From the IMG/VR virus record IMGVR_UViG_3300029286_000059, positions 1-50,459 of that record: a stretch of 50,459 nucleotides of DNA; one strand, written 5' to 3'. This stretch comes from a virus. Shown here one piece after another: positions 3,472-38,300 of this stretch. How positions within the stretch are numbered: position 1 is the first letter of the stretch; each line of letters begins with the position of its first letter. Under the pieces are notes generated by a model. That model did no database searches. It was not told the DNA's origin and was given only the letters and a program-made list of their open reading frames with translations. A program made the translations under genes and the position numbers.

Positions 3472-3536
3472 TTTTTAAACTTTTTGAAAAATAATTGATA
3501 AAATAGAAAAAACAGACTAAAAGTATTTAATATATA
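3472..3536 (+). repeat. 65-bp promoter repeat, copy 1
   Basis: Nearly identical to 6978-7042 (a few differences near the 3' side). Both copies end in TTTAATATATA and both lie 24 nt upstream of the start codon of a leader peptide. The conserved length suggests a complete promoter with flanking control sequence that drives each tRNA array. Confidence 0.85.
3526..3536 (+). promoter_or_regulatory. TTTAATATATA promoter for leader 1 and tRNA array 1
   Basis: The 11-base motif recurs upstream of many genes in the window (7032, 7961, 10140, 25240, 27548, 34507, 40670 and, on the - strand, 20798 and 38713), usually 20-40 nt from a start codon. It is probably a phage-specific promoter element, by analogy with single-box T4 late promoters. 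Confidence 0.65.
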
Positions 3537-3559: not shown

Positions 3560-3646
3560 ATGAAAAACATTGTAAATACCAACCTATATTATTTGTATTT
3601 ATACCTCTATCCAAACAGAGACTGGGTTGATATTGCTATGAAATAA
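3560..3646 (+). CDS. attenuator leader peptide 1, 28 aa, Leu/Tyr-rich
   Basis: The peptide begins MKNIVNTNLYYLYLYLYPN and ends at TAA 3644-3646. Codons 9-17 are CTA TAT TAT TTG TAT TTA TAC CTC TAT: nine codons alternating Leu (four different codons) and Tyr (both codons). The tRNAs encoded just downstream carry Leu and Tyr anticodons. The frame lies between a promoter and an intrinsic terminator, the arrangement of trp/his leader peptides. A chance ORF with this composition in this place is very unlikely, though translation is not proven. Confidence 0.85.
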   Translation: MKNIVNTNLYYLYLYLYPNRDWVDIAMK

Positions 3647-3699
3647 TTAAACTTATTTTTACAAATCGGAAACCCGGTCTCAAAAGGATCGGGTTTTTT
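3575..3699 (+). promoter_or_regulatory. transcription attenuator controlling tRNA array 1
   Basis: Three mutually exclusive helices are visible. Region 1 (3575-3584, AATACCAACC) can pair with region 2 (3625-3634, GGTTGATATT) at 9 of 10 positions. Region 2 (3618-3628, GAGACTGGGTT) pairs with region 3 (3671-3681, AACCCGGTCTC) over 11 bp as antiterminator. Region 3 (3671-3679) pairs with region 4 (3687-3695, GATCGGGTT) as terminator before a T-run. A ribosome stalled on the Leu/Tyr codons (3584-3610) would cover region 1 and free region 2 for antitermination. A ribosome reaching the stop covers region 2 and lets the terminator form. Confidence 0.85.
3671..3699 (+). terminator. attenuator terminator 1
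   Basis: Nine-bp hairpin AACCCGGTC/GATCGGGTT with a 7-nt loop followed by TTTTTT. Located between leader peptide 1 and the first tRNA, so it should stop transcription when the leader is translated without stalling. Confidence 0.9.
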
Positions 3700-3947: not shown

Positions 3948-4021
3948 GAGATCATTGGACAGTTGGCTGTCTAGCGGCTTGTAACACCGTTCTTTTGTAG
4001 GTTCGAATCCTTCTGGTCTCA
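3948..4021 (+). tRNA. tRNA-Tyr(GTA)-like, class I size
   Basis: Acceptor GAGATCA/TGGTCTC, D-arm hairpin GACAG-TTGG-CTGTC, T-arm with TTCGAAT. The anticodon hairpin GCGG...CCGT holds TTGTAAC with a C-A mismatch closing the loop, giving GTA. A 9-nt loop reading with TGT (Thr) is possible. Tyr is favoured because array 1 and its leader are Leu/Tyr. Confidence 0.65.
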
Positions 4022-4028
4022 CGATAAT

Positions 4029-4100
4029 GGGAATATTGAGTAGTGGTCACTCAGCGGTCTGTAAAACCGTGATCTATAGGTTCGAATCCTATTATTCCCA
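4029..4100 (+). tRNA. tRNA-Tyr(GTA), class I
   Basis: Full cloverleaf: acceptor GGGAATA/TATTCCC, D-stem GAGT/ACTC, anticodon hairpin GCGGT-CTGTAAA-ACCGT, variable loop about 5 nt, T-arm ATAGG-TTCGAAT-CCTAT, A73. Bacterial tRNA-Tyr is normally class II with a long variable arm, so the short variable loop is odd. Confidence 0.8.
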
Positions 4101-4108
4101 CAAAATAA

Positions 4109-4190
4109 GGCTGGATGGCGAAATTGGTAGCCGCGTTGGTCTAAGAAGCCAATGTCGAAAGACGTGGGGGTTCGAGTCCCCCTCCGGTCA
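4109..4190 (+). tRNA. tRNA-Leu(AAG), class II
   Basis: Acceptor GGCTGGA/TCCGGTC, Leu-type D-arm TGGCGAAATTGGTAGCCGC, anticodon hairpin TTGGT-CTAAGAA-GCCAA (AAG), variable arm TGTC-GAAA-GACG, T-arm GGGGG/CCCCC. An A34 Leu tRNA is rare in bacteria. If modified to inosine it would read CUU and CUC. Confidence 0.85.
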
Positions 4191-4191
4191 C

Positions 4192-4205
4192 TTTCTTTGA
4201 AATAA
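4192..4205 (+). promoter_or_regulatory. boxA-like element between tRNAs
   Basis: TTTCTTTGAAATAA lies in the spacer between two tRNAs and matches the elements at 7210 and 7907 except for the first base. Confidence 0.45.
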
Positions 4206-4206
4206 T

Positions 4207-4301
4207 GTGATTGTTTGTCCGAATTCCGGAACGGCGAATATTGGGACACTGGTGGCTGTAACCGCTAGATGTTAATGTGGGTTCAATTCCCATCAATCAC
4301 A
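4207..4301 (+). tRNA. tRNA-Tyr(GTA)-like with an enlarged D-loop
   Basis: Acceptor GTGATTG/CAATCAC and T-arm GTGGG-TTCAATT-CCCAT are sound. The D-stem TGTCC/GGGACA encloses about 22 nt including the self-complementary TTCCGGAA, roughly 15 nt more than usual. The anticodon hairpin CTGGTGG/CCGCTAG closes a CTGTAA loop of only 6 nt containing GTA. Probably a Tyr-related but aberrant tRNA. Confidence 0.6.
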
Positions 4302-4308
4302 CACAAAT

Positions 4309-4393
4309 GGCCTTGTGGCGGAATTGGTAGACGCGACGGACTTAAAATCCGTTGTCCATTACGGGCGTGTGGGTTCGAGTCCCACCTTGGCTA
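4309..4393 (+). tRNA. tRNA-Leu(TAA), class II
   Basis: Leu-type D-arm TGGCGGAATTGGTAGACGC, anticodon hairpin ACGGA-CTTAAAA-TCCGT (TAA), long variable arm, T-arm GTGGG/CCCAC. The acceptor GGCCTTG/CTTGGCT has two T-T mismatches. Confidence 0.85.
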
Positions 4394-4407
4394 CATATTA
4401 AATATTG

Positions 4408-4489
4408 GGGAGTGTTCCAGAGTGGTCAAATGGGGCAGACTGTAAATCTGTTGGCGTAGCCTTCGGAGGTTCGAATCCTTCCACTCCCA
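4408..4489 (+). tRNA. tRNA-Tyr(GTA), class II
   Basis: Canonical bacterial Tyr tRNA: acceptor GGGAGTG/CACTCCC, anticodon hairpin CAGA-CTGTAAA-TCTG, long variable arm around GGCGTAGCCTTC, T-arm GGAGG-TTCGAAT-CCTTC, A73. The best-formed Tyr tRNA of array 1. Confidence 0.92.
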
Positions 4490-4516
4490 CAAATCGGTTG
4501 GTGATGACCGATAAAT

Positions 4517-4600
4517 GCCGAGGTGGCGGAACTGGTAGACGCACCGGTCTCAAAAACCGGTATCAGTAATGATGTGTGGGTTCGACTCCCATCCTCGGTA
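4517..4600 (+). tRNA. tRNA-Leu(CAA), class II
   Basis: Acceptor GCCGAGG/CCTCGGT, D-arm TGGCGGAACTGGTAGACGC, anticodon hairpin CCGGT-CTCAAAA-ACCGG (CAA), variable arm, T-arm with TTCGACT. Canonical class II Leu tRNA reading UUG. Confidence 0.92.
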
Positions 4601-4609
4601 CAACAATTT

Positions 4610-4682
4610 GTCCCTGTAGCCTAACTGGAAGTGGCGTCAGACTTAAACCCTGAATATACCGGTTCGATTCCGGTCGGGGATA
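4610..4682 (+). tRNA. class I tRNA with Leu anticodon TAA
   Basis: Acceptor GTCCCTG/CGGGGAT, TA at 8-9, D-arm GCCTAACTGGAAGTGGC, anticodon hairpin TCAGA-CTTAAAC-CCTGA (one A-C mismatch next to the loop), 5-nt variable loop, T-arm ACCGG/CCGGT. The anticodon reads UUA, but Leu tRNAs are normally class II, so the charged amino acid is open. Confidence 0.8.
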
Positions 4683-4688
4683 CAAATT

Positions 4689-4763
4689 GCCTCTGTGGTC
4701 TAAAGGAAGTGGCGTGAGTTTTAGAAACTCAAAATACGGGTTCGAGTCCCGTCAGGGGCACCA
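4689..4763 (+). tRNA. class I tRNA with Leu anticodon TAG, CCA encoded
   Basis: Acceptor GCCTCTG/CAGGGGC, A73 and encoded CCA. D-arm GGTCTAAAGGAAGTGGC, anticodon hairpin TGAGT-TTTAGAA-ACTCA (TAG, reads CUA), short variable loop, T-arm ACGGG/CCCGT. Same family as the neighbours at 4610 and 4768. The anticodon is not a stop suppressor. Confidence 0.82.
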
Positions 4764-4767
4764 AAAT

Positions 4768-4840
4768 GTCTCCATAGCCTAATTGGAAGTGGCGTTAGTT
4801 TCAAAAACTAAATGTATCGGTTCAATTCCGATTGGGGATA
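4768..4840 (+). tRNA. class I tRNA with Leu anticodon CAA
   Basis: Acceptor GTCTCCA/TGGGGAT, D-arm GCCTAATTGGAAGTGGC, anticodon hairpin TTAGT-TTCAAAA-ACTAA (CAA), 4-5 nt variable loop, T-arm ATCGG/CCGAT. Third member of the class I Leu-anticodon group. Confidence 0.82.
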
Positions 4841-4855
4841 CAAAAATTCAACAAA

Positions 4856-5083
4856 ATGGCAAGAGTAGAAGGAAATAGGATAACAGAAGCAATGGATTTC
4901 GAAAGTGATACAAAAAACTGGAAATTCGATTTTGCACATATGTGTAGATTTTACGGAAAAGATTTCATCGAAAATATTAAAGCTATGTGGTCTGTAAATG
5001 ATGATGTTCAAACAGAAGATGAATTTTGTGAAATGAACGGAATTCCTAAAAGTTTCTTTGAAAAAACAATTAAAGGAAAATAA
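4856..5083 (+). CDS. unknown protein inside tRNA array 1, 75 aa
   Basis: ATG 4856 (MARVEGNRITEAMDF...) follows the tRNA at 4840 by 15 nt. An upstream in-frame ATG at 4832 lies inside the tRNA and is unlikely. The product is soluble and mildly acidic. It ends 1 nt before the next tRNA, so it is co-transcribed with the array. No family recognised. Confidence 0.65.
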   Translation: MARVEGNRITEAMDFESDTKNWKFDFAHMCRFYGKDFIENIKAMWSVNDDVQTEDEFCEMNGIPKSFFEKTIKGK

Positions 5084-5157
5084 GGCTCTGTGCTGAAATT
5101 GGTAAACAGAATTGTTTCAGAATCAATTTATTACGGGTTCGAGTCCCGTCTGGGTCA
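5084..5157 (+). tRNA. class I tRNA with Leu anticodon CAG
   Basis: Acceptor GGCTCTG/CTGGGTC (one mismatch), D-stem CTG/CAG, anticodon hairpin ATTGT-TTCAGAA-TCAAT (CAG), short variable loop TTATT, T-arm ACGGG-TTCGAGT-CCCGT. Last tRNA of array 1. Its start is fused to the stop codon of the preceding gene. Confidence 0.78.
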
Positions 5158-5171
5158 CTAAATTTAAAATT

Positions 5172-6977: not shown

Positions 6978-7042
6978 TTTTTAAACTTTTTGAAAAATAA
7001 TTGATAAAATAGAAAAAACAGACTAAAAAGATTTAATATATA
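6978..7042 (+). repeat. 65-bp promoter repeat, copy 2
   Basis: Second copy of the element at 3472-3536, again ending in TTTAATATATA (7032-7042) and again 24 nt upstream of a leader-peptide start. The repeat marks both attenuator-controlled tRNA operons. Confidence 0.85.
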
Positions 7043-7065: not shown

Positions 7066-7128
7066 ATGACACAGAACATCCAAAATATGATTATTAATCA
7101 AATACCGGTAAAAATACCGATTGGATGA
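7066..7128 (+). CDS. attenuator leader peptide 2, 20 aa, Gln/Asn/Ile/Met-rich
   Basis: MTQNIQNMIINQIPVKIPIG, TGA at 7126-7128. Codons 3-13 are CAG AAC ATC CAA AAT ATG ATT ATT AAT CAA ATA: both Gln codons, both Asn codons, all three Ile codons and Met, without any other amino acid. The downstream array encodes tRNAs with Ile, Asn, Gln and CAU anticodons. Same architecture as leader 1 (65-bp repeat, leader, terminator, tRNAs) but a different amino-acid set, which is strong evidence for codon-specific sensing. Confidence 0.87.
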   Translation: MTQNIQNMIINQIPVKIPIG

Positions 7129-7183
7129 ACTTTGTCTATAACGAATATAGAAAAAACCCAATCGGAAACGGTTGGGTTTTTTT
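7105..7183 (+). promoter_or_regulatory. transcription attenuator controlling bL12 and tRNA array 2
   Basis: Region 1 (7106-7110, CGGTA) pairs with region 2 (7115-7119, TACCG) around an AAAA loop. Region 2 (7117-7124, CCGATTGG) pairs perfectly over 8 bp with region 3 (7158-7165, CCAATCGG) as antiterminator. Region 3 (7155-7164) forms the terminator with 7169-7178. Stalling on the Gln/Asn/Ile/Met codons upstream should favour the antiterminator. The stop codon lies right after region 2, so a ribosome finishing the leader masks it. Confidence 0.83.
7155..7183 (+). terminator. attenuator terminator 2
   Basis: Ten-bp hairpin AACCCAATCG-GAAA-CGGTTGGGTT (one G-U pair, GNRA-type loop) followed by a run of seven T. 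Strong intrinsic terminator between leader 2 and bL12. Confidence 0.92.
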
Positions 7184-7194
7184 GTTTTGATCCA

Positions 7195-7261
7195 CCATAG
7201 TTTTAACCAGTTCTTTGAAATAAAAATAAAAATGTTAAAAAAATAAATTATAAAACTATGG
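7195..7261 (+). promoter_or_regulatory. hairpin sequestering the bL12 start codon
   Basis: CCATAGTTTTA (7195-7205) is perfectly complementary to TAAAACTATGG (7251-7261), which contains the bL12 ATG at 7258-7260. The 45-nt loop carries the boxA-like element. The helix would hide the start codon, suggesting translational control of bL12, for instance by a protein or RNA that opens or stabilises it. Confidence 0.65.
7210..7225 (+). promoter_or_regulatory. boxA-like element
   Basis: GTTCTTTGAAATAAAA, repeated exactly at 7907-7922 and closely at 4192 and 3703. Resembles the boxA found in rRNA leaders. It lies just after attenuator terminator 2. Confidence 0.55.
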
Positions 7262-7635
7262 AAAATTTAGAGAAATTGGCGGAAGATTTGAGTAACCTTA
7301 CCGTATTGCAGTGTTACCAACTAGCCAAAATAATGAAAGAAGAATACGGTATAGAACCAAACACGAAAGTTCTTGGTGTAAATGTATCACCTATCCCAAC
7401 TCCAGTAATGGAAATTGAGAAAACAACTTTCGATGTGATTCTGAAATCAGCAGGAAATATTAATAAACTTGGTGTTATCAAATCCATTAAAGAAATGACA
7501 GGACAAAGTTTATTGGAAATTAAAACTCTTGTTGATAACGCACCATCAAAATTGAAAGAAAATATTAGTAAAGACGAAGCATATGCTTTACTAAATACTC
7601 TGAAAGAATTAGGTGCAGAAATTGAAGTTCTTTGA
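7258..7635 (+). CDS. rplL: ribosomal protein bL12 (L7/L12), phage-encoded, 125 aa
   Basis: The C-terminal domain (about residues 54-125) follows bL12 closely: EKTTFDVILKSAGNINKLGV, IKSIKEMTGQSLLEIKTLVD, then SKDEAYALLNTLKELGAEIE, the surface that recruits translation GTPases. The N-terminal 33 residues form the helical dimer/uL10-binding domain, joined by a proline-containing hinge (about 36-54). Full length for the family. Viral bL12 homologues have been described. A phage copy could replace or compete with host bL12 on the stalk. It is the first gene after attenuator 2, so its transcription should follow Gln/Asn/Ile/Met-tRNA status, and its start codon is in a hairpin. Confidence 0.93.
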   Translation: MENLEKLAEDLSNLTVLQCYQLAKIMKEEYGIEPNTKVLGVNVSPIPTPVMEIEKTTFDVILKSAGNINKLGVIKSIKEMTGQSLLEIKTLVDNAPSKLKENISKDEAYALLNTLKELGAEIEVL

Positions 7636-7688: not shown

Positions 7689-7821
7689 AAATGTAGTAGC
7701 GAGTTTAAGTGTTACTTCGTAGCTTAATAGTTAAGCATCAAACTGATAATTTGAAAATTGTGGGTGCGATTCCCATCGAGCCCGAAAGGGTTTAAATCAC
7801 TTAATGATTATCTCTACATTT
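7689..7821 (+). tRNA. tRNA-Ile(GAT) inside an extended acceptor structure
   Basis: The core 7713-7783 has D-arm TAGCTTAATAGTTAAGCA, anticodon hairpin TCAAA-CTGATAA-TTTGA (GAT) and T-arm GTGGG-TGCGATT-CCCAT. The immediate acceptor pairs only CTTCG/CGAG. Outside it, TTAAGTG (7705-7711) pairs with CACTTAA (7798-7804), and AAATGTAG (7689-7696) pairs with CTACATTT (7814-7821), with a CCC-GAAA-GGG hairpin between. Either nested leader/trailer helices that are processed away or a tRNA with inserts in the acceptor arm. Confidence 0.7.
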
Positions 7822-7827
7822 TTAAAA

Positions 7828-7904
7828 CGGATTGTAAACCCTCTGTCTGATAAACAGTTGAAAGGTTAATTGGTTACATGGTGGTTCGATTCCACTCAAT
7901 CCGA
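7828..7904 (+). tRNA. tRNA-Ile(GAT)-like with D segment after the anticodon hairpin
   Basis: Acceptor CGGATTG/CAATCCG, TA at 8-9, T-arm GGTGG-TTCGATT-CCACT, A73. The anticodon hairpin CTGT-CTGATAA-ACAG (GAT) starts at about position 16 of the RNA instead of 27. AACC (7837-7840) pairs with GGTT (7864-7867) and encloses it. A D-loop-like AATTGGTTA then follows, before the T-arm. See also 8889 and 8976. Confidence 0.65.
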
Positions 7905-7922: not shown

Positions 7923-7960
7923 GGTTGAAAGTTCAAAATGGAAAAATACTACCTTTTGTA

Positions 7961-7971
7961 TTTAATATATA
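7961..7971 (+). promoter_or_regulatory. TTTAATATATA promoter of a homing endonuclease
   Basis: The motif lies 12 nt before ATG 7983 and inside the longer open frame that begins at 7938, which argues that the gene really starts at 7983. Confidence 0.6.
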
Positions 7972-7982
7972 AATATAAAAAG

Positions 7983-8921
7983 ATGGGAAATTTTAAAGAT
8001 AGTGATTATTATAAATCTGGAAGAAGTTTAGAAAATGCTAAAATAGGATCTATAAAAAGTTCTATAAAATCTAAAGAATTAAGATTGGATAGAATAAAAA
8101 AGTATAATGAAAATCCAAAATTGTGTTTAAATTGTTTCAAACCAATAGATTATGATAAAAAATATAATAAATTTTGTTCTACATCTTGTTCAGCTTATTA
8201 TAATAATATAAAAAGAGGTGCCAGAAGTGATGAAACTAAAAATAAAATATCTTCAAGTTTAATGGGAAAAATTGTTAGTGATGTAACAAGAAAAAAAATA
8301 AGTGATGCAAAAAAAAGTGAAAAAAGTAAAAATAAAATTTCTAATTCATTGAAAATTTTTTGGAAAAATAATATTAAAGCTAAAAATAATTTAAGTAAAA
8401 AATTAACAGGTAGAATTGTTTCTACTGAAACCAGAAGTAAACAATCTGAAATAATGAGTAATAAGATAAAAAACGGAACTTTTAAACCAAAATTGAAAAG
8501 TATAAAATGTGAATACAATTTTAAAAATGAAAAAATAAGATGTGATTCTAAGGTAGAATATAGTTGTTTAAATTATTTCGAAAAAAATTATGATGTAATT
8601 GATATAAAAAGATGTGATTTTTTAATAGATTTTGAATATAAAGGTGTTAATAGAAAATACAATCCAGATTTTAAAATAATTACTAAAAATGATATATTTA
8701 TTGTAGAATGTAAAACAATTTTATCAAATAAAGATTTACAAAGAAAATGGGAATATTATTATGATACAATTGAATATAAAAAATTAGCTTTGGATAAATA
8801 TTGTAAAGATAATAATTTTATATCATTTAACTATAATAAATCAATGAATGTAAAATTTTATAATAATTGTAAATATGAAATATTAAATTGTGCCGTACCA
8901 GCGGATCCTGATAAGATCTAG
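7983..8921 (+). CDS. homing endonuclease, NUMOD-type repeats and PD-(D/E)xK-like domain, 312 aa
   Basis: The start at 7983 is chosen because the phage promoter motif sits just upstream. The frame is open from 7938. The N-terminal part has a CxxC...C-C pattern (LCLNCFKPID, KFCSTSCSAYY) and repeated SDVTRKKISDA/STETRSKQSE segments like NUMOD3. The C-terminal part CDSKVEYSC...YNPDFKI...DIFIVECKT fits a PD-(D/E)xK nuclease core (E, D, ExK). Inserted in tRNA array 2. Its last 11 codons and stop lie within the downstream tRNA at 8889. Confidence 0.8.
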   Translation: MGNFKDSDYYKSGRSLENAKIGSIKSSIKSKELRLDRIKKYNENPKLCLNCFKPIDYDKKYNKFCSTSCSAYYNNIKRGARSDETKNKISSSLMGKIVSDVTRKKISDAKKSEKSKNKISNSLKIFWKNNIKAKNNLSKKLTGRIVSTETRSKQSEIMSNKIKNGTFKPKLKSIKCEYNFKNEKIRCDSKVEYSCLNYFEKNYDVIDIKRCDFLIDFEYKGVNRKYNPDFKIITKNDIFIVECKTILSNKDLQRKWEYYYDTIEYKKLALDKYCKDNNFISFNYNKSMNVKFYNNCKYEILNCAVPADPDKI

Positions 8922-8975: not shown

Positions 8976-9054
8976 GGTGGTGTATCCCTCGTGTCTTATA
9001 CACACGCGTTAATCGGGTAACTGGTGTATGGGGGTTCGAATCCCTCCACCACTA
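8976..9054 (+). tRNA. tRNA-Ile(TAT)-like with D segment after the anticodon hairpin
   Basis: Acceptor GGTGGTG/CACCACT, TA at 8-9, T-arm GGGGG-TTCGAAT-CCCTC. A perfect hairpin CGTGT-CTTATAC-ACACG (TAT, reads AUA) starts at position 15. CCC (8986-8988) pairs with GGG (9015-9017), and D-loop-like AATCGGGTAA follows the hairpin. Third example of the same rearranged order, all with Ile anticodons. Confidence 0.65.
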
Positions 9055-9062
9055 CTAAATAT

Positions 9063-9149
9063 GTACAGTTGGCCGAGTGGTCGATGGCACAAGACTGTTA
9101 ATCTTGCGAGATGAAAGTCCCAACATAGGTTCGAATCCTATACTGTACG
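9063..9149 (+). tRNA. class II tRNA with Ser-like body and Asn anticodon (GTT)
   Basis: Acceptor GTACAGT/ACTGTAC with G73, D-arm TGGCCGAGTGGTCGATGGC, long variable arm and T-arm ATAGG-TTCGAAT-CCTAT: all tRNA-Ser features. The anticodon hairpin CAAGA-CTGTTAA-TCTTG carries GTT, which reads Asn codons. One change from GCT (Ser AGY) would give this. SerRS ignores the anticodon, so Ser might be delivered to Asn codons. Confidence 0.75.
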
Positions 9150-9157
9150 CAATAATT

Positions 9158-9228
9158 GGGTTTGTAGTTCAAAGGTAGAACGTCCGGCTGTTAACCGGCT
9201 AATGTTGGTTCGATTCCATCCATTCCCG
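9158..9228 (+). tRNA. tRNA-Asn(GTT)
   Basis: D-arm TAGTTCAAAGGTAGAAC, anticodon hairpin CCGG-CTGTTAA-CCGG (GTT), short variable loop, T-arm with TTCGATT, G73. The acceptor GGGTTTG/CATTCCC has two mismatches. Canonical Asn body. Confidence 0.88.
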
Positions 9229-9233
9229 CTAAT

Positions 9234-9321
9234 GTCGATGTGAGCAGAGTTGGTTATTGCGGAGGTCCCATAAACCTTTCAACTTGAAAGAGTTGCGGTG
9301 GTTCGAATCCACTTATCGATA
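9234..9321 (+). tRNA. class II tRNA with CAT anticodon (Met or lysidine-Ile)
   Basis: Acceptor GTCGATG/TATCGAT, D-stem GCA/TGC, anticodon hairpin GAGGT-CCCATAA-ACCTT (CAT, with C instead of U at position 33), long variable arm CAACT...AGTTG, T-arm GGTGG-TTCGAAT-CCACT. CAT tRNAs are normally class I. Could read AUG, or AUA after lysidine modification. Both codons occur in leader 2. Confidence 0.65.
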
Positions 9322-9322
9322 C

Positions 9323-9394
9323 AGTTCTATGGTGTAACGCGTAGCATGACTCCCCTTGAAGGAGATGGTCAAGGTTCGAATCCTTGTAGGACTG
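9323..9394 (+). tRNA. tRNA-Gln(TTG)
   Basis: Acceptor AGTTCTA/TAGGACT with G73, anticodon hairpin CTCC-CCTTGAA-GGAG (TTG, C at position 33), T-arm CAAGG-TTCGAAT-CCTTG. The D-arm is atypical (TGGTGTAACGCGTAGCATG). Confidence 0.78.
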
Positions 9395-9399
9395 CAAAA

Positions 9400-9553: not shown

Positions 9554-9625
9554 TGTTTTGTCGTATAATGGGAGTACAACACCCTCTGAAGGTGCATGGT
9601 ATGGGTTCGAATCCTATCAAAACAA
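9554..9625 (+). tRNA. tRNA-Gln(CTG)
   Basis: Acceptor TGTTTTG/CAAAACA, anticodon hairpin CACC-CTCTGAA-GGTG (CTG with U33), T-arm ATGGG-TTCGAAT-CCTAT. With the TTG tRNA it covers both Gln codons present in leader 2. Confidence 0.85.
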
Positions 9626-9627
9626 CT

Positions 9628-9701
9628 ATGATTATTATAATACTCATAAGTTTAAAAATAAGTATGTGATGATTACTATGATAATCATTGTAATAACATG
9701 A
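9628..9701 (+). CDS. two overlapping Ile-rich upstream ORFs (13 and 10 codons)
   Basis: ATG 9628 encodes MIIIILISLKISM and stops at TGA 9667-9669. ATG 9669 overlaps that stop and encodes MITMIIIVIT, stopping at TGA 9699-9701, which overlaps the HNH gene start at 9698. Together they hold ATT, ATC and ATA Ile codons and sit right after the Ile/Gln tRNAs. They may couple translation of the downstream gene to Ile-tRNA supply. Translation is not proven. Confidence 0.45.
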
Positions 9702-10015
9702 AAAAGGAAATAAGAAAAATATTTCGTCAGGAAGTATTCAGTAGGGACAAATATACTTGTAAGGGGTGTGGGAAAAAATTTGATGAATCTGAATTGGATG
9801 CACATCATATTACTGATAGGAACGAAATGCCTAATGGTGGATATATAAAGGAAAACGGAATAACTCTTTGTAAAGATGAATGTCATATGAAAGCTGAAAG
9901 GTATCATATTACAGATGGCAAAGAATTTGTTCCGGGTTTCCATCCTGACGAATTATATGAAAAGATTGATTCATCCAAAGGGAAAGCTTTTTATTTTTCA
10001 CAACTTTTGGAATAA
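9698..10015 (+). CDS. HNH endonuclease, 105 aa
   Basis: Short free-standing HNH protein: FSRDKYTCKGCGKKF gives the first CxxC pair, LDAHHITDR the central DxHH, and GITLCKDECHMKAE the C-terminal part. Probably a homing-type nuclease in the tRNA array. Its ATG overlaps the stop of an Ile-rich upstream ORF, suggesting coupled translation. Confidence 0.8.
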   Translation: MKKEIRKIFRQEVFSRDKYTCKGCGKKFDESELDAHHITDRNEMPNGGYIKENGITLCKDECHMKAERYHITDGKEFVPGFHPDELYEKIDSSKGKAFYFSQLLE

Positions 10016-10038: not shown

Positions 10039-10111
10039 TGTCCAATAGCGCAATTGGTAGAGCATCAGAATTTGGGTCTGGCGGTTAAAGGTTCGAGTCC
10101 TTTTTGGACAA
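10039..10111 (+). tRNA. tRNA-Gln(TTG) or tRNA-Pro(TGG)
   Basis: Acceptor TGTCCAA/TTGGACA, D-arm TAGCGCAATTGGTAGAGC, T-arm AAAGG-TTCGAGT-CCTTT. The best anticodon hairpin TCAGA-ATTTGGG-TCTGG puts TTG at 34-36, followed by GG. A shifted reading would give TGG (Pro) but breaks the stem. Last tRNA of array 2. Confidence 0.75.
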
Positions 10112-10139
10112 CAAAGTGTAGTGTTTTTTCATTTTATAA

Positions 10140-12310: not shown

Positions 12311-12619
12311 ATGGATTTATTTCCTAAATTTATTATTGAAGATGGTAACTTAATTTTAAGTAAGGTAATTAAACACAAACACCTTGTCACAAATAAAGAA
12401 AAGGTAAAAGGGGGTGGATGGTTTAGATTCAATAGTGAAACCAATACATTCATATTTTATGAATCTTCTGTTGATTTTGGAAAAGCTACATTTGAAGATA
12501 TATCAAATTGTGTTAAGAATAAAAAAGTGTTCACCAATGTATCGTTGATACACAATATTTCAGAAAAACACAATTTTTGTTATGATACTGGTAGTGAAAT
12601 AATTAACATTGAAAAATAA
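12311..12619 (+). CDS. unknown protein, 102 aa
   Basis: Not recognised. Soluble, mixed alpha/beta composition. Preceded by AAAAAAAGGAGGATTA, one of the few clear purine-rich ribosome-binding sequences here. Ends directly before the RNase P RNA gene, with which it is probably co-transcribed. Confidence 0.7.
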   Translation: MDLFPKFIIEDGNLILSKVIKHKHLVTNKEKVKGGGWFRFNSETNTFIFYESSVDFGKATFEDISNCVKNKKVFTNVSLIHNISEKHNFCYDTGSEIINIEK

Positions 12620-12846
12620 CTAATATCGGACTCTACGCTGGTCGAAAGATTAGAGGAAGTTCGCGACTACAAAACCTAACGAGGGAGATCTAAACAATCG
12701 TTAAACCTCGGAAGTAGCAAGCCAAACAGATTGAGGGTGTCGGTTTCCCTTTGAGATCGGGTTGGTGCACCTTTCATTGGAAAGGAAATCCGAAAGGGTT
12801 TAGATAAATGTAGAGATAGAACAGAATCGCGGCTATTCGTTATTAG
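12620..12846 (+). ncRNA. rnpB: RNase P RNA, compact phage-encoded version
   Basis: No ORF fits. Conserved parts appear in the right order: AGAGGAAGTTCGCGAC at about 12652 (CR-I, P4 5' strand; family GAGGAAAGTCC), TTAAACCTCGGAAGTAGCAA followed by GCCAAACAG (family AAACTCC...GGAGCAAGGCCAAATAG), GGTTTAGATAAATG (family CTAGATGAATG), and ACAGAATCGCGGCTAT at 12821-12836 (CR-V, P4 3' strand; family ACAGAACCCGGCTTAT). The ends CTAATA (12620) and TATTAG (12841) form P1. At about 227 nt it is much shorter than the usual 350-400 nt, so peripheral helices are missing. It would supply the catalytic RNA that matures the 5' ends of the phage tRNAs. Confidence 0.88.
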
Positions 12847-12860
12847 TTTTTTATATTTTA
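12847..12860 (+). terminator. T-run after RNase P RNA
   Basis: TTTTTTATATTTTA directly follows the P1 3' strand, so P1 may serve as terminator stem. The next gene starts at 12864. Confidence 0.4.
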
Positions 12861-36396: not shown

Positions 36397-37539
36397 ATGG
36401 AATTGCTATTATCAAAAGAAGAAACATTATACTTGGTTAATCGTCTTAACGATTTTTACGGTGATATAAACTCAATCCAAGATTATTTCATAAAAAGAAA
36501 AAAAGAAAAAGTAAGGGGAATAGATCCAAATAAATATAAAGACTATATTTTTGATGACTACTCAATGCAACCAAAAGATATGTCTTTTTCTTGCCAAATA
36601 TTGGATGGTGATTTCTTTCAAGAATTTTGTCAAGTTATCACATCACTTCCATTAGAATCTCAAATTGGTCGAAGAATAAATGTTGGTATTAAAGAAAATC
36701 ATACAGGTAAGTATGTAGCTTTGGTTCGTATTTCTTCTCCAGTATTAAATGTAAAACCTAGAAATGAAATATTCGGTAGGACACTTCGTAATACCGATGT
36801 GAATGATTATATGATGAATGGATCAATAATCGTTCCTGTGCAACCATTTGGGTATAATTACTTAGGTGGTAAGTTAGGTGCACTATTTTGTGTGTCAAAT
36901 GAATCAGTTGATTTGATTCATCAAAAATATTCAAAGAAATATTGTTTCTTTGAAACTACATCTCTTTATGGTAATATTAAAAGTTCCAGTCAATATGATG
37001 GTTTGGAACCAATGATTAAATATCATGGTCTAACAAATTCTGATTTGTTCCTAACACCAAATAAAGATGTATATTTTGAAGTTAGAGATGTCGTAAGAAA
37101 ATATTACGGTAAACCGGAGTGGGGTAATTCATTAGTAGATCCTATCCCATCAGGTCCAAAAATGAGGGAACTTACAAAAATGATTAGTATCCTTACCAAT
37201 CATTTAAAAGAATATGATCCTGAAAAACATAAGGAATTTGTAACCTTTCAGAAAGAAAAAATGAAAGCTAAAACACAAAAAAGATATTACTATTCCACTT
37301 TTGGTCACAAGAAAGAAAATATTATACAACATATAACTAGTGGTGGTTCAGTACCTTTGGTTAGAGATGAACCAGAAAGATACGACTTTCATAATTTAAT
37401 TGAATGGTGGAAAGTTAAAGCTCAGAAGAGATACGAAAAATTAGAGTTTCTTGGTGATATTAGAAAAGATATTGAAATCTACACCGAAGAAAAACTAAAT
37501 AAGAAATTGGAAGAATTACATGGTGATATGATTAGATAA
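36397..37539 (+). CDS. DUF4338/DruA-like protein, 380 aa
   Basis: The block YNYLGGKLGALFCVSNESVD, then YCFFETTSLYGNIKSSSQYD and YHGLTNSDLF, follows the LLGGKLLAL...T-T-S-x-x-G-x-S-S-Q-Y pattern of DUF4338 proteins, which include DruA of the Druantia defence system and phage proteins. N-terminal region unknown; the C-terminus is basic and helical. Function uncertain. A nuclease-like role has been suggested for the family. Confidence 0.55.
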   Translation: MELLLSKEETLYLVNRLNDFYGDINSIQDYFIKRKKEKVRGIDPNKYKDYIFDDYSMQPKDMSFSCQILDGDFFQEFCQVITSLPLESQIGRRINVGIKENHTGKYVALVRISSPVLNVKPRNEIFGRTLRNTDVNDYMMNGSIIVPVQPFGYNYLGGKLGALFCVSNESVDLIHQKYSKKYCFFETTSLYGNIKSSSQYDGLEPMIKYHGLTNSDLFLTPNKDVYFEVRDVVRKYYGKPEWGNSLVDPIPSGPKMRELTKMISILTNHLKEYDPEKHKEFVTFQKEKMKAKTQKRYYYSTFGHKKENIIQHITSGGSVPLVRDEPERYDFHNLIEWWKVKAQKRYEKLEFLGDIRKDIEIYTEEKLNKKLEELHGDMIR

Positions 37540-38094: not shown

Positions 38095-38140
38095 GTTAAA
38101 ACAAATAGTATAATGTAAATATATAATATAAACGGGGTGA

Positions 38141-38240
38141 AACTCAACATTGTATCATCAGAATAAAGATATTGGAATATTGGCTTGGAAGCAGCCATCT
38201 ATCTAAGGAGTGCGTAACTGCTCACCAATATTGGATGACA
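38141..38240 (+). ncRNA. RNA mimicking the 23S rRNA GTPase-associated centre (uL11-binding domain)
   Basis: The core 38169-38231 aligns with E. coli 23S 1051-1108. Conserved blocks are GGCTTGGAAGCAGCCATC (E. coli GGCUUAGAAGCAGCCAUC) and GAGTGCGTAACTGCTCA (many bacteria GAGUGCGUAAUAGCUCA), enclosed by ATATTGG/CCAATAT in place of CCAGG/CUGG. The base at the A1067 position is G (38187). Outside it, ATTGT(AT)CATC pairs with GATGACAAT, leaving an asymmetric AGAATAAAG bulge where helix 42 carries the uL10-binding kink-turn. No ORF covers it. It should fold like the 58-nt domain that binds uL11 and the translation GTPases. Role inferred: decoy, sensor or leader. Confidence 0.9.
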
Positions 38241-38300
38241 ATCAGGAGTACACTTGAAAAAGTGGGTGGCTCGTAACCTCTTCACTCCACTAAAGATTAA
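38241..38300 (+). ncRNA. second hairpin element of the same transcript
   Basis: GGAGT (38245-38249) pairs with ACTCC (38284-38288) and encloses a CACTT-GAAA-AAGTG hairpin and a GGT...ACC element. It may belong to the same structured RNA as the rRNA mimic. Identity unknown. Confidence 0.4.

Follow-up and report, generated by a model that had tools for sequence, protein, structure and literature searches.

A phage bL12 gene at the head of a putatively codon-sensing tRNA operon, with a GAC-like RNA encoded separately

The window analysed here is a 50,459-base IMG/VR virus record, possibly a fragment, so that absences reported for it apply to the window and not necessarily to the whole genome. 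It carries a bL12 gene between a transcription attenuator and a set of tRNA genes, a second attenuator ahead of a Tyr/Leu tRNA array, and a structured RNA that encloses a domain resembling the GAC of 23S rRNA (Table 1). The Ile tRNAs were assigned by reading the anticodon loop in Rfam matches that ARAGORN left uncalled. We compared the locus with three relatives: G001 (locus L002), a 211-kb contig; G012 (L022), a 104-kb contig that is a fragment; and W01 (L003), the 735-kb phage LR756501. These four bL12 genomes form two close pairs and therefore amount to few independent cases, and three of the four records may be fragments.

Table 1. Features of the window, by position.
Feature	Positions	Strand	Details
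Second leader peptide, MKNIVNTNLYYLYLYLYPNRDWVDIAMK to stop	3560-3646	+	Leu, Tyr rich
Second attenuator	3618-3698	+	antiterminator 3618-3628 x 3671-3681, 11 bp, -21.9 kcal/mol; terminator 3668-3698, -16.8 kcal/mol
Tyr/Leu tRNA array after second attenuator	3948-5158	+	ARAGORN, Rfam
Promoter-like motif GAAAAAACAGAC..TTTAATATATA	7012-7042	+	near-identical copy at 3506, upstream of the Leu/Tyr leader
Leader peptide, MTQNIQNMIINQIPVKIPIG to stop	7066-7128	+	20 codons; Asn, Gln, Ile, Met rich
Antiterminator 5' arm CCGATTGG (region 2)	7117-7124	+	pairs with 7158-7165, 8 bp, -14.1 kcal/mol
Intrinsic terminator and T run (regions 3/4)	7151-7185	+	14-bp stem 7151-7164/7169-7182, -18.1 kcal/mol; region 3 includes 7158-7165
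bL12, 125 aa	7258-7635	+	ATG to TGA; Pfam PF00542, PF16320
tRNA-Ile (GAT), from anticodon-loop reading	7717-7779	+	Rfam tRNA 49.3 bits
tRNA-like gene with an odd arm	7828-7904	+	Rfam tRNA 30.0 bits
Endonuclease-like ORF with NUMOD3 motif, within the array	7938-8921	+	E 7.5e-4, just below cut-off; missing from L002
tRNA, probably Ile (TAT)	8976-9054	+	Rfam tRNA 33.0 bits
tRNA-Asn, tRNA-Asn, tRNA-Met, tRNA-Gln	9063-9395	+	ARAGORN, Rfam
tRNA-Gln (CTG)	9554-9626	+	ARAGORN, Rfam
HNH endonuclease	9698-10015	+	E 9.3e-7; relative near array end in L002, L003, L022
tRNA-Gln (TTG)	10039-10112	+	ARAGORN, Rfam
Structured RNA enclosing the GAC domain	38134-38288	+	P1 38134-38141/38281-38288
GAC-like core (23S H42-H44)	38171-38229	+	Rfam LSU_rRNA_bacteria positions 1092-1149, E 7.1e-12

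The original prediction described a full-length bL12 with both domains, and our analysis bears this out. The C-terminal factor-binding domain (Ribosomal_L12, E 1.3e-20) and the N-terminal dimerisation and uL10-binding domain (Ribosomal_L12_N, E 1.5e-8) both score above their curated Pfam cut-offs, and nearly the whole of the solved E. coli bL12 can be aligned, to phage residues 6-124 (E 1.2e-20); the Pfam matches leave no doubt about the fold. Among the phage proteins the N-terminal core (alignment columns 13-34) is 86-95% identical, as compared to 61-87% for the C-terminal domain. The equivalents of E. coli K65, K70, L80, E82, and K84 are invariant, while that of R73 is K and that of G79, which we take to be a conserved position in the E. 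coli protein, is S or T. The dN/dS ratio (NG86) is 0.13 between the window and its nearest relative and 0.19 between the two more distant relatives, values of purifying selection, which indicate that the gene is maintained.

Identity to the window protein is 85% for G001 and 67% for W01. When the four phage proteins were placed in a tree among 81 further bL12 sequences, they grouped as a single clade (100/100) with a long stem, next to Bacteroidota; the finer forks of this tree carry little meaning because the alignment has few columns. The nearest cellular matches are likewise from Bacteroidota, at about 50% identity. Taken together, the single clade and its cellular neighbours suggest one old acquisition and a host from Bacteroidota. 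Protein scans of viral contigs returned two bL12 relatives only. Further bL12 matches in “phage” records from human faeces, Salmonella, Listeria, and Staphylococcus were rejected, as they look like host DNA: the bL12 of MT836236 groups with Prevotella in the tree, and the remaining suspect records were judged host-like from their low identity to the window protein and from rRNA in the same record sets. Contamination of this kind in virus collections (L005 and L165 hold plain host 23S rRNA, and L004 holds a Prevotella-like bL12) could skew counts of viral bL12 and rRNA.

The order attenuator-bL12-tRNAs is common to the window, G001, W01, and G012, so that the predicted placement of bL12 behind a codon-sensing attenuator with tRNAs is kept in four related phages. 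Leaders lie at the equivalent place in all three relatives and are preceded by a similar promoter-like motif, which in the bL12 operon of G001 is found farther upstream, ahead of an insertion of about 75 nt. The terminator stands before the first structural gene, bL12, and shares an arm with the antiterminator. The antiterminator arms read CCGATTGG/CCAATCGG in the window and CTGATTGG/CCAATCAG in W01 and G012, a compensatory change that retains the pairing. In G001 the leader (L002 9757-9850) carries a one-C difference relative to the window leader and reads through the terminator, which reflects either a sequence error or an attenuator that works differently there. A DNA pattern derived from the attenuator was rejected as a search tool, since it matched mostly unrelated coding sequence. 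Just 5' of the bL12 attenuator, W01 (L003 11475-11721) and G012 (L022 7292-7579) have a small, very basic conserved protein (MSKKAKLNNREKRLQEKRNRKAANKAKY...).

It could be argued that bL12 is a passenger whose insertion behind the attenuator and ahead of the tRNAs was accidental and whose control by tRNA supply has no consequence, and the tRNA arrays of these phages do gather HNH/NUMOD-type inserts. However, bL12 has kept its position in the four genomes despite tRNA turnover, and both the low dN/dS and a tree that fits one old acquisition speak against this explanation, which we consider very unlikely.

The codons of the leaders correspond to the tRNAs downstream. In the window, N, Q, I, and M codons abound in the bL12 leader, and Ile, Asn, Met, and Gln tRNAs follow. 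The bL12 leaders of W01 (MKNMVRKYNDYCINDKLKMLIG) and G012 (MKNMVYNINDCIYNDKRKMLIG) are instead rich in N, D, I, C, and Y codons, and their tRNAs include Ile/Cys/Asp/Asn/Tyr. Leaders thus differ along with the tRNA sets, indicating that leader codons follow tRNA content. We scanned the other tRNA clusters of these genomes for short ORFs accompanied by a terminator and an antiterminator that competes with it. All multi-tRNA arrays examined have a leader that spells their own amino acids (two of them recognised by eye), while for clusters of one or two scattered tRNAs (L145, L149, L152, L154) the scan gave no leader. For example, NLYYLYLYLY precedes a Tyr/Leu array (Leu/Tyr arrays have this leader or NLLNLLLLL), KHSKHFSSSSKWF a His/Phe/Ser/Lys/Trp array, MIQEQMQQ a Glu/Met/Gln/Ile array, GMDCGRDDR a Gly/Met/Asp/Cys/Arg array, and TPAPAVAFRRGTGTGTGT an Arg/Thr/Val/Ala/Gly/Pro array. 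The Leu operons of W01 and G012 also contain a leucyl-tRNA synthetase gene, directly after the Leu tRNAs with their Leu-rich leader (L003 6853-8379; L022 5006-6565). Two tRNAs of W01 with a CTA anticodon (L154, at 2586 and 2664) are possible amber suppressors in this 735-kb phage.

Sixteen leaders were permuted exactly against the tRNA arrays found in the same genome; of 691,200 pairings the true one was the single best, the cases being partly non-independent because the genomes form two close pairs. The leaders recognised by eye were those of L143 and L153 and the bL12 leaders of the window, W01, and G001; with automatically found leaders alone (W01, G012, G001), the true pairing ranked 1 of 864. 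At the level of sequence, this matching of leaders to arrays is strong evidence for codon sensing. The alternative is that the leaders are not sensors, their codons merely making use of the phage tRNAs while the terminators just set the dosage of the arrays. Within a genome, however, each leader fits its own array more closely than it fits the remaining arrays, and the antiterminator pairing is kept with a compensatory change; we regard this reading as highly improbable.

In trp-type attenuation, stalling of a ribosome on the leader for lack of a charged tRNA allows formation of the antiterminator and hence transcription of the operon. By this mechanism the phage bL12 would be produced whenever Asn, Gln, Ile, or Met codons are decoded slowly. 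Charged tRNAs for these amino acids could be scarce when host tRNAs are depleted, cleaved, or mismatched to the codon usage of the phage; a ribosome would then stall on the leader, region 2 would pair with region 3, the terminator would be blocked, and the polymerase would continue into bL12 and the tRNAs. The protein would presumably bind host uL10 by way of its N-terminal helix, which is highly conserved, and sustain or enlarge the supply of stalks available for recruiting EF-Tu and EF-G. A plausible purpose of the arrangement is that tRNA supply and factor recruitment would rise together. In W01 and G012, an EF-G gene lies about 3-5 kb downstream of bL12 in the same direction (L003 15224-17251; L022 13180-15207).

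Neither uL10 nor uL11 was detected in any of the four bL12 genomes, three of whose records may be fragments, and the phage bL12 would therefore have to use host uL10. A near-invariant uL10-binding helix, the absence of a detectable phage uL10 or uL11, and the kept factor-binding residues are consistent with incorporation into ribosomes. In one published study, 70S ribosomes of E. coli were found to contain another phage bL12 expressed there, although a tagged phage bL12 could not be used for ribosome purification (PMC6375957), so that docking may be weak. The originally proposed swap of the ribosomal stalk is plausible as a hypothesis. A bL12 that acts off the ribosome, titrating host uL10 or the translation GTPases and so damping host translation, would also have kept both interaction surfaces, and the strong divergence from host bL12 (about 50% identity, long tree stem) would fit it. 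We nevertheless find this unlikely, because additional bL12 that retains the two surfaces should in principle be built into stalks, and because a setting among tRNAs, with LeuRS and EF-G nearby in relatives, favours support of translation. Our preferred reading, which we hold to be probable, is that bL12 is the first gene of an attenuator-controlled tRNA operon, that it docks on host uL10 and boosts the stalks, and that the GAC-like RNA is encoded by a separate gene.

The original prediction also paired bL12 with a GAC-like RNA elsewhere in the genome; the RNA proved real and GAC-like, while its link to bL12 is weak. The 59-nt core in the window breaks none of the pairs of the Rfam LSU model, and a 21-base match to 23S H44 at 38205 has an expectation of 0.00 in shuffled sequence; the RNA of G001 also matches the LSU model (E 2.8e-9). 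Rather than being embedded in 23S rRNA, the GAC domain of the window is free-standing: outside model positions 1092-1149 the flanks are not rRNA, and BLAST against 23S records covers this patch alone. Between the window and G001 (L155), the 8-bp P1 shows five double compensatory changes, and a pair in H44 is compensated as well between these two short-form RNAs. The position equivalent to A1067 is G in the window. It is also observed that the short-form RNA (window 38134-38288; L155 2228-2391) has, in our interpretation, ends like a tRNA T-arm and acceptor inside P1, clearest in G001, where GTGGTTCGAAACCAC is followed by AATCTTCCACA (also given as AATCTTCCA), with the GAC apparently carried on a long helix in place of the anticodon arm; tRNA and tmRNA models gave no match to this tRNA-like end.

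Both bL12 and the GAC RNA are present in two of the four bL12 phages, the window and G001. No GAC RNA was detectable in the other two, W01 (LR756501) and the fragment G012, and no full-length bL12 was found in 35 carriers of the RNA outside the bL12 clade, many of which are fragments. G016 (L179 8502-8945), a carrier of the long form, has an unrelated N-terminus fused to a bL12 C-terminal domain, an independent protein whose gene ends 24 nt 5' of a tRNA-Val, and bL12 matches in three further carriers are short and partial. The expected co-occurrence in relatives was seen in G001 and not in W01, G012, and the 35 other carriers, in part contradicting the predicted pairing. As bL12 occurs where no GAC RNA is detectable and the RNA where no full-length bL12 was found, the two are separable.

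These distributions bear on the idea that bL12 and the GAC RNA jointly mimic the stalk and so capture translation factors or uL10/uL11. The window and G001 do have both, and both short-form RNAs so far come from bL12 phages, but W01 has bL12 without detectable GAC RNA, no full-length bL12 was found in the 35 other carriers, and in the window the two lie 31 kb apart, each with its own promoter-like sequence (that of the RNA, TAAATATATAA, which precedes it, resembles the one ahead of the leaders). A joint mimic of this kind is in our view quite unlikely. On its own, the GAC-like RNA is probably a trans-acting mimic of the stalk base that is not obligately tied to bL12.

The RNA belongs to a family with two conserved 23S GAC halves and a variable insert, present in more than 100 virus contigs and in cultivated jumbo phages (L009-L018, L023-L124, L164, L166-L174). 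The exact 5' block occurs in 10 contigs and the 3' block TTTGGCGTAAYAGCACACC in 106 stretches, of which 92 have a recognisable 5' block 57-655 nt upstream. Outer stems vary in sequence and, by eye, retain their pairing. Among 32 distinct sequences, H43 has 21 cells changed on both sides, a count reached by 0 of 500 shuffles, inflated by related sequences, and set against 0-6 for slid versions of the helix. The A1067-equivalent base is A in 76, G in 13, and C in 2. The cultivated carriers include Cronobacter GAP32, Pectobacterium CBB, Serratia BF, Xanthomonas XacN1, Pseudomonas pf16, Aeromonas 4_4572, and others, where the copies are intergenic and mostly unannotated. In Rfam 15, no family covers it except for the weak LSU match. 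A strict tie to tRNA arrays was rejected, with 45 of 106 copies within 500 nt of a detected tRNA as compared to 29% of positions drawn at random from those loci, although in 62 of 62 cases the RNA shares its strand with the nearest tRNA. Our first strict GAC pattern was discarded, its sole match being a 23S rRNA chimaera (L005), as were GAC model matches in W01 (E 0.04 and above), two of which, on inspection, were AT-rich and without the conserved core.

The L10 leader, the rplJ autoregulatory site, is a non-ribosomal RNA thought to imitate the stalk site, and the phage RNA is like it in this respect, while resembling rRNA itself. The L10 leader model (RF00557) gave no match in the window at the gathering score or at E<=10 in an Rfam covariance search. 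As compared to the 23S GAC (H42-H44), to the whole of which the 59-nt core aligns and whose H43 pairs covary in the phage RNAs, the phage RNA is free-standing; in its short form the domain is part of a longer helix whose ends are tRNA-like, and its long form has the spacing given above between the starts of the two conserved blocks. Attenuators of the trp/his/thr type classically govern biosynthesis operons in cells. Those of the phages share with them a leader peptide with regulatory codons and mutually exclusive antiterminator and terminator, but they occur as several distinct units before tRNA arrays, LeuRS, and bL12, and most span several amino acids.

As the original prediction stated, viral bL12 genes are already known: published work describes phage-encoded bL12 (Mizuno et al. 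2019, PMC6375957) and, in huge phages, rpL7/L12 together with EF-G (Al-Shayeb et al. 2020, PMC7162821), and the window resembles these cases in having such a gene. In the portions of the literature available, bL12 of cultivated phages is mostly a domain in larger proteins, in phages of <80 kb, with no mention of an attenuator, whereas the window protein has two domains, resembles those of Bacteroidota, and is encoded at the head of an attenuated tRNA operon. Neither codon-matched attenuators on phage tRNA operons nor a free-standing GAC RNA was found described in the open-licence literature searched, an absence that counts as weak evidence.

Why phages carry tRNAs is a long-standing question, and codon-matched attenuators would mean that the phages studied here gauge tRNA supply in the course of infection and respond operon by operon, a prediction directly testable by reporters. 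A stalk protein in the same circuit would tie tRNA supply to factor recruitment. We give about an even chance to a broader scheme of feedback in large phages, one amino acid at a time, in which a set of leaders covering most amino acids would each switch on the matching tRNAs together with translation genes such as bL12 and LeuRS, and in which, separately, the GAC RNA would act in trans on uL11, the stalk, or the GTPases in many unrelated phages. The GAC-like RNA, present in workable cultivated phages, offers a way to ask whether phages decoy part of the ribosome.

Elsewhere in the window, an Rfam match to RNase P class A at 12619-12851 was rejected, as it reached 37.7 bits (gathering score 100) and a second search did not reproduce it. 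The phage protein at 36397-37539 has a Pfam match to DruA of the Druantia defence system (E 4e-12).
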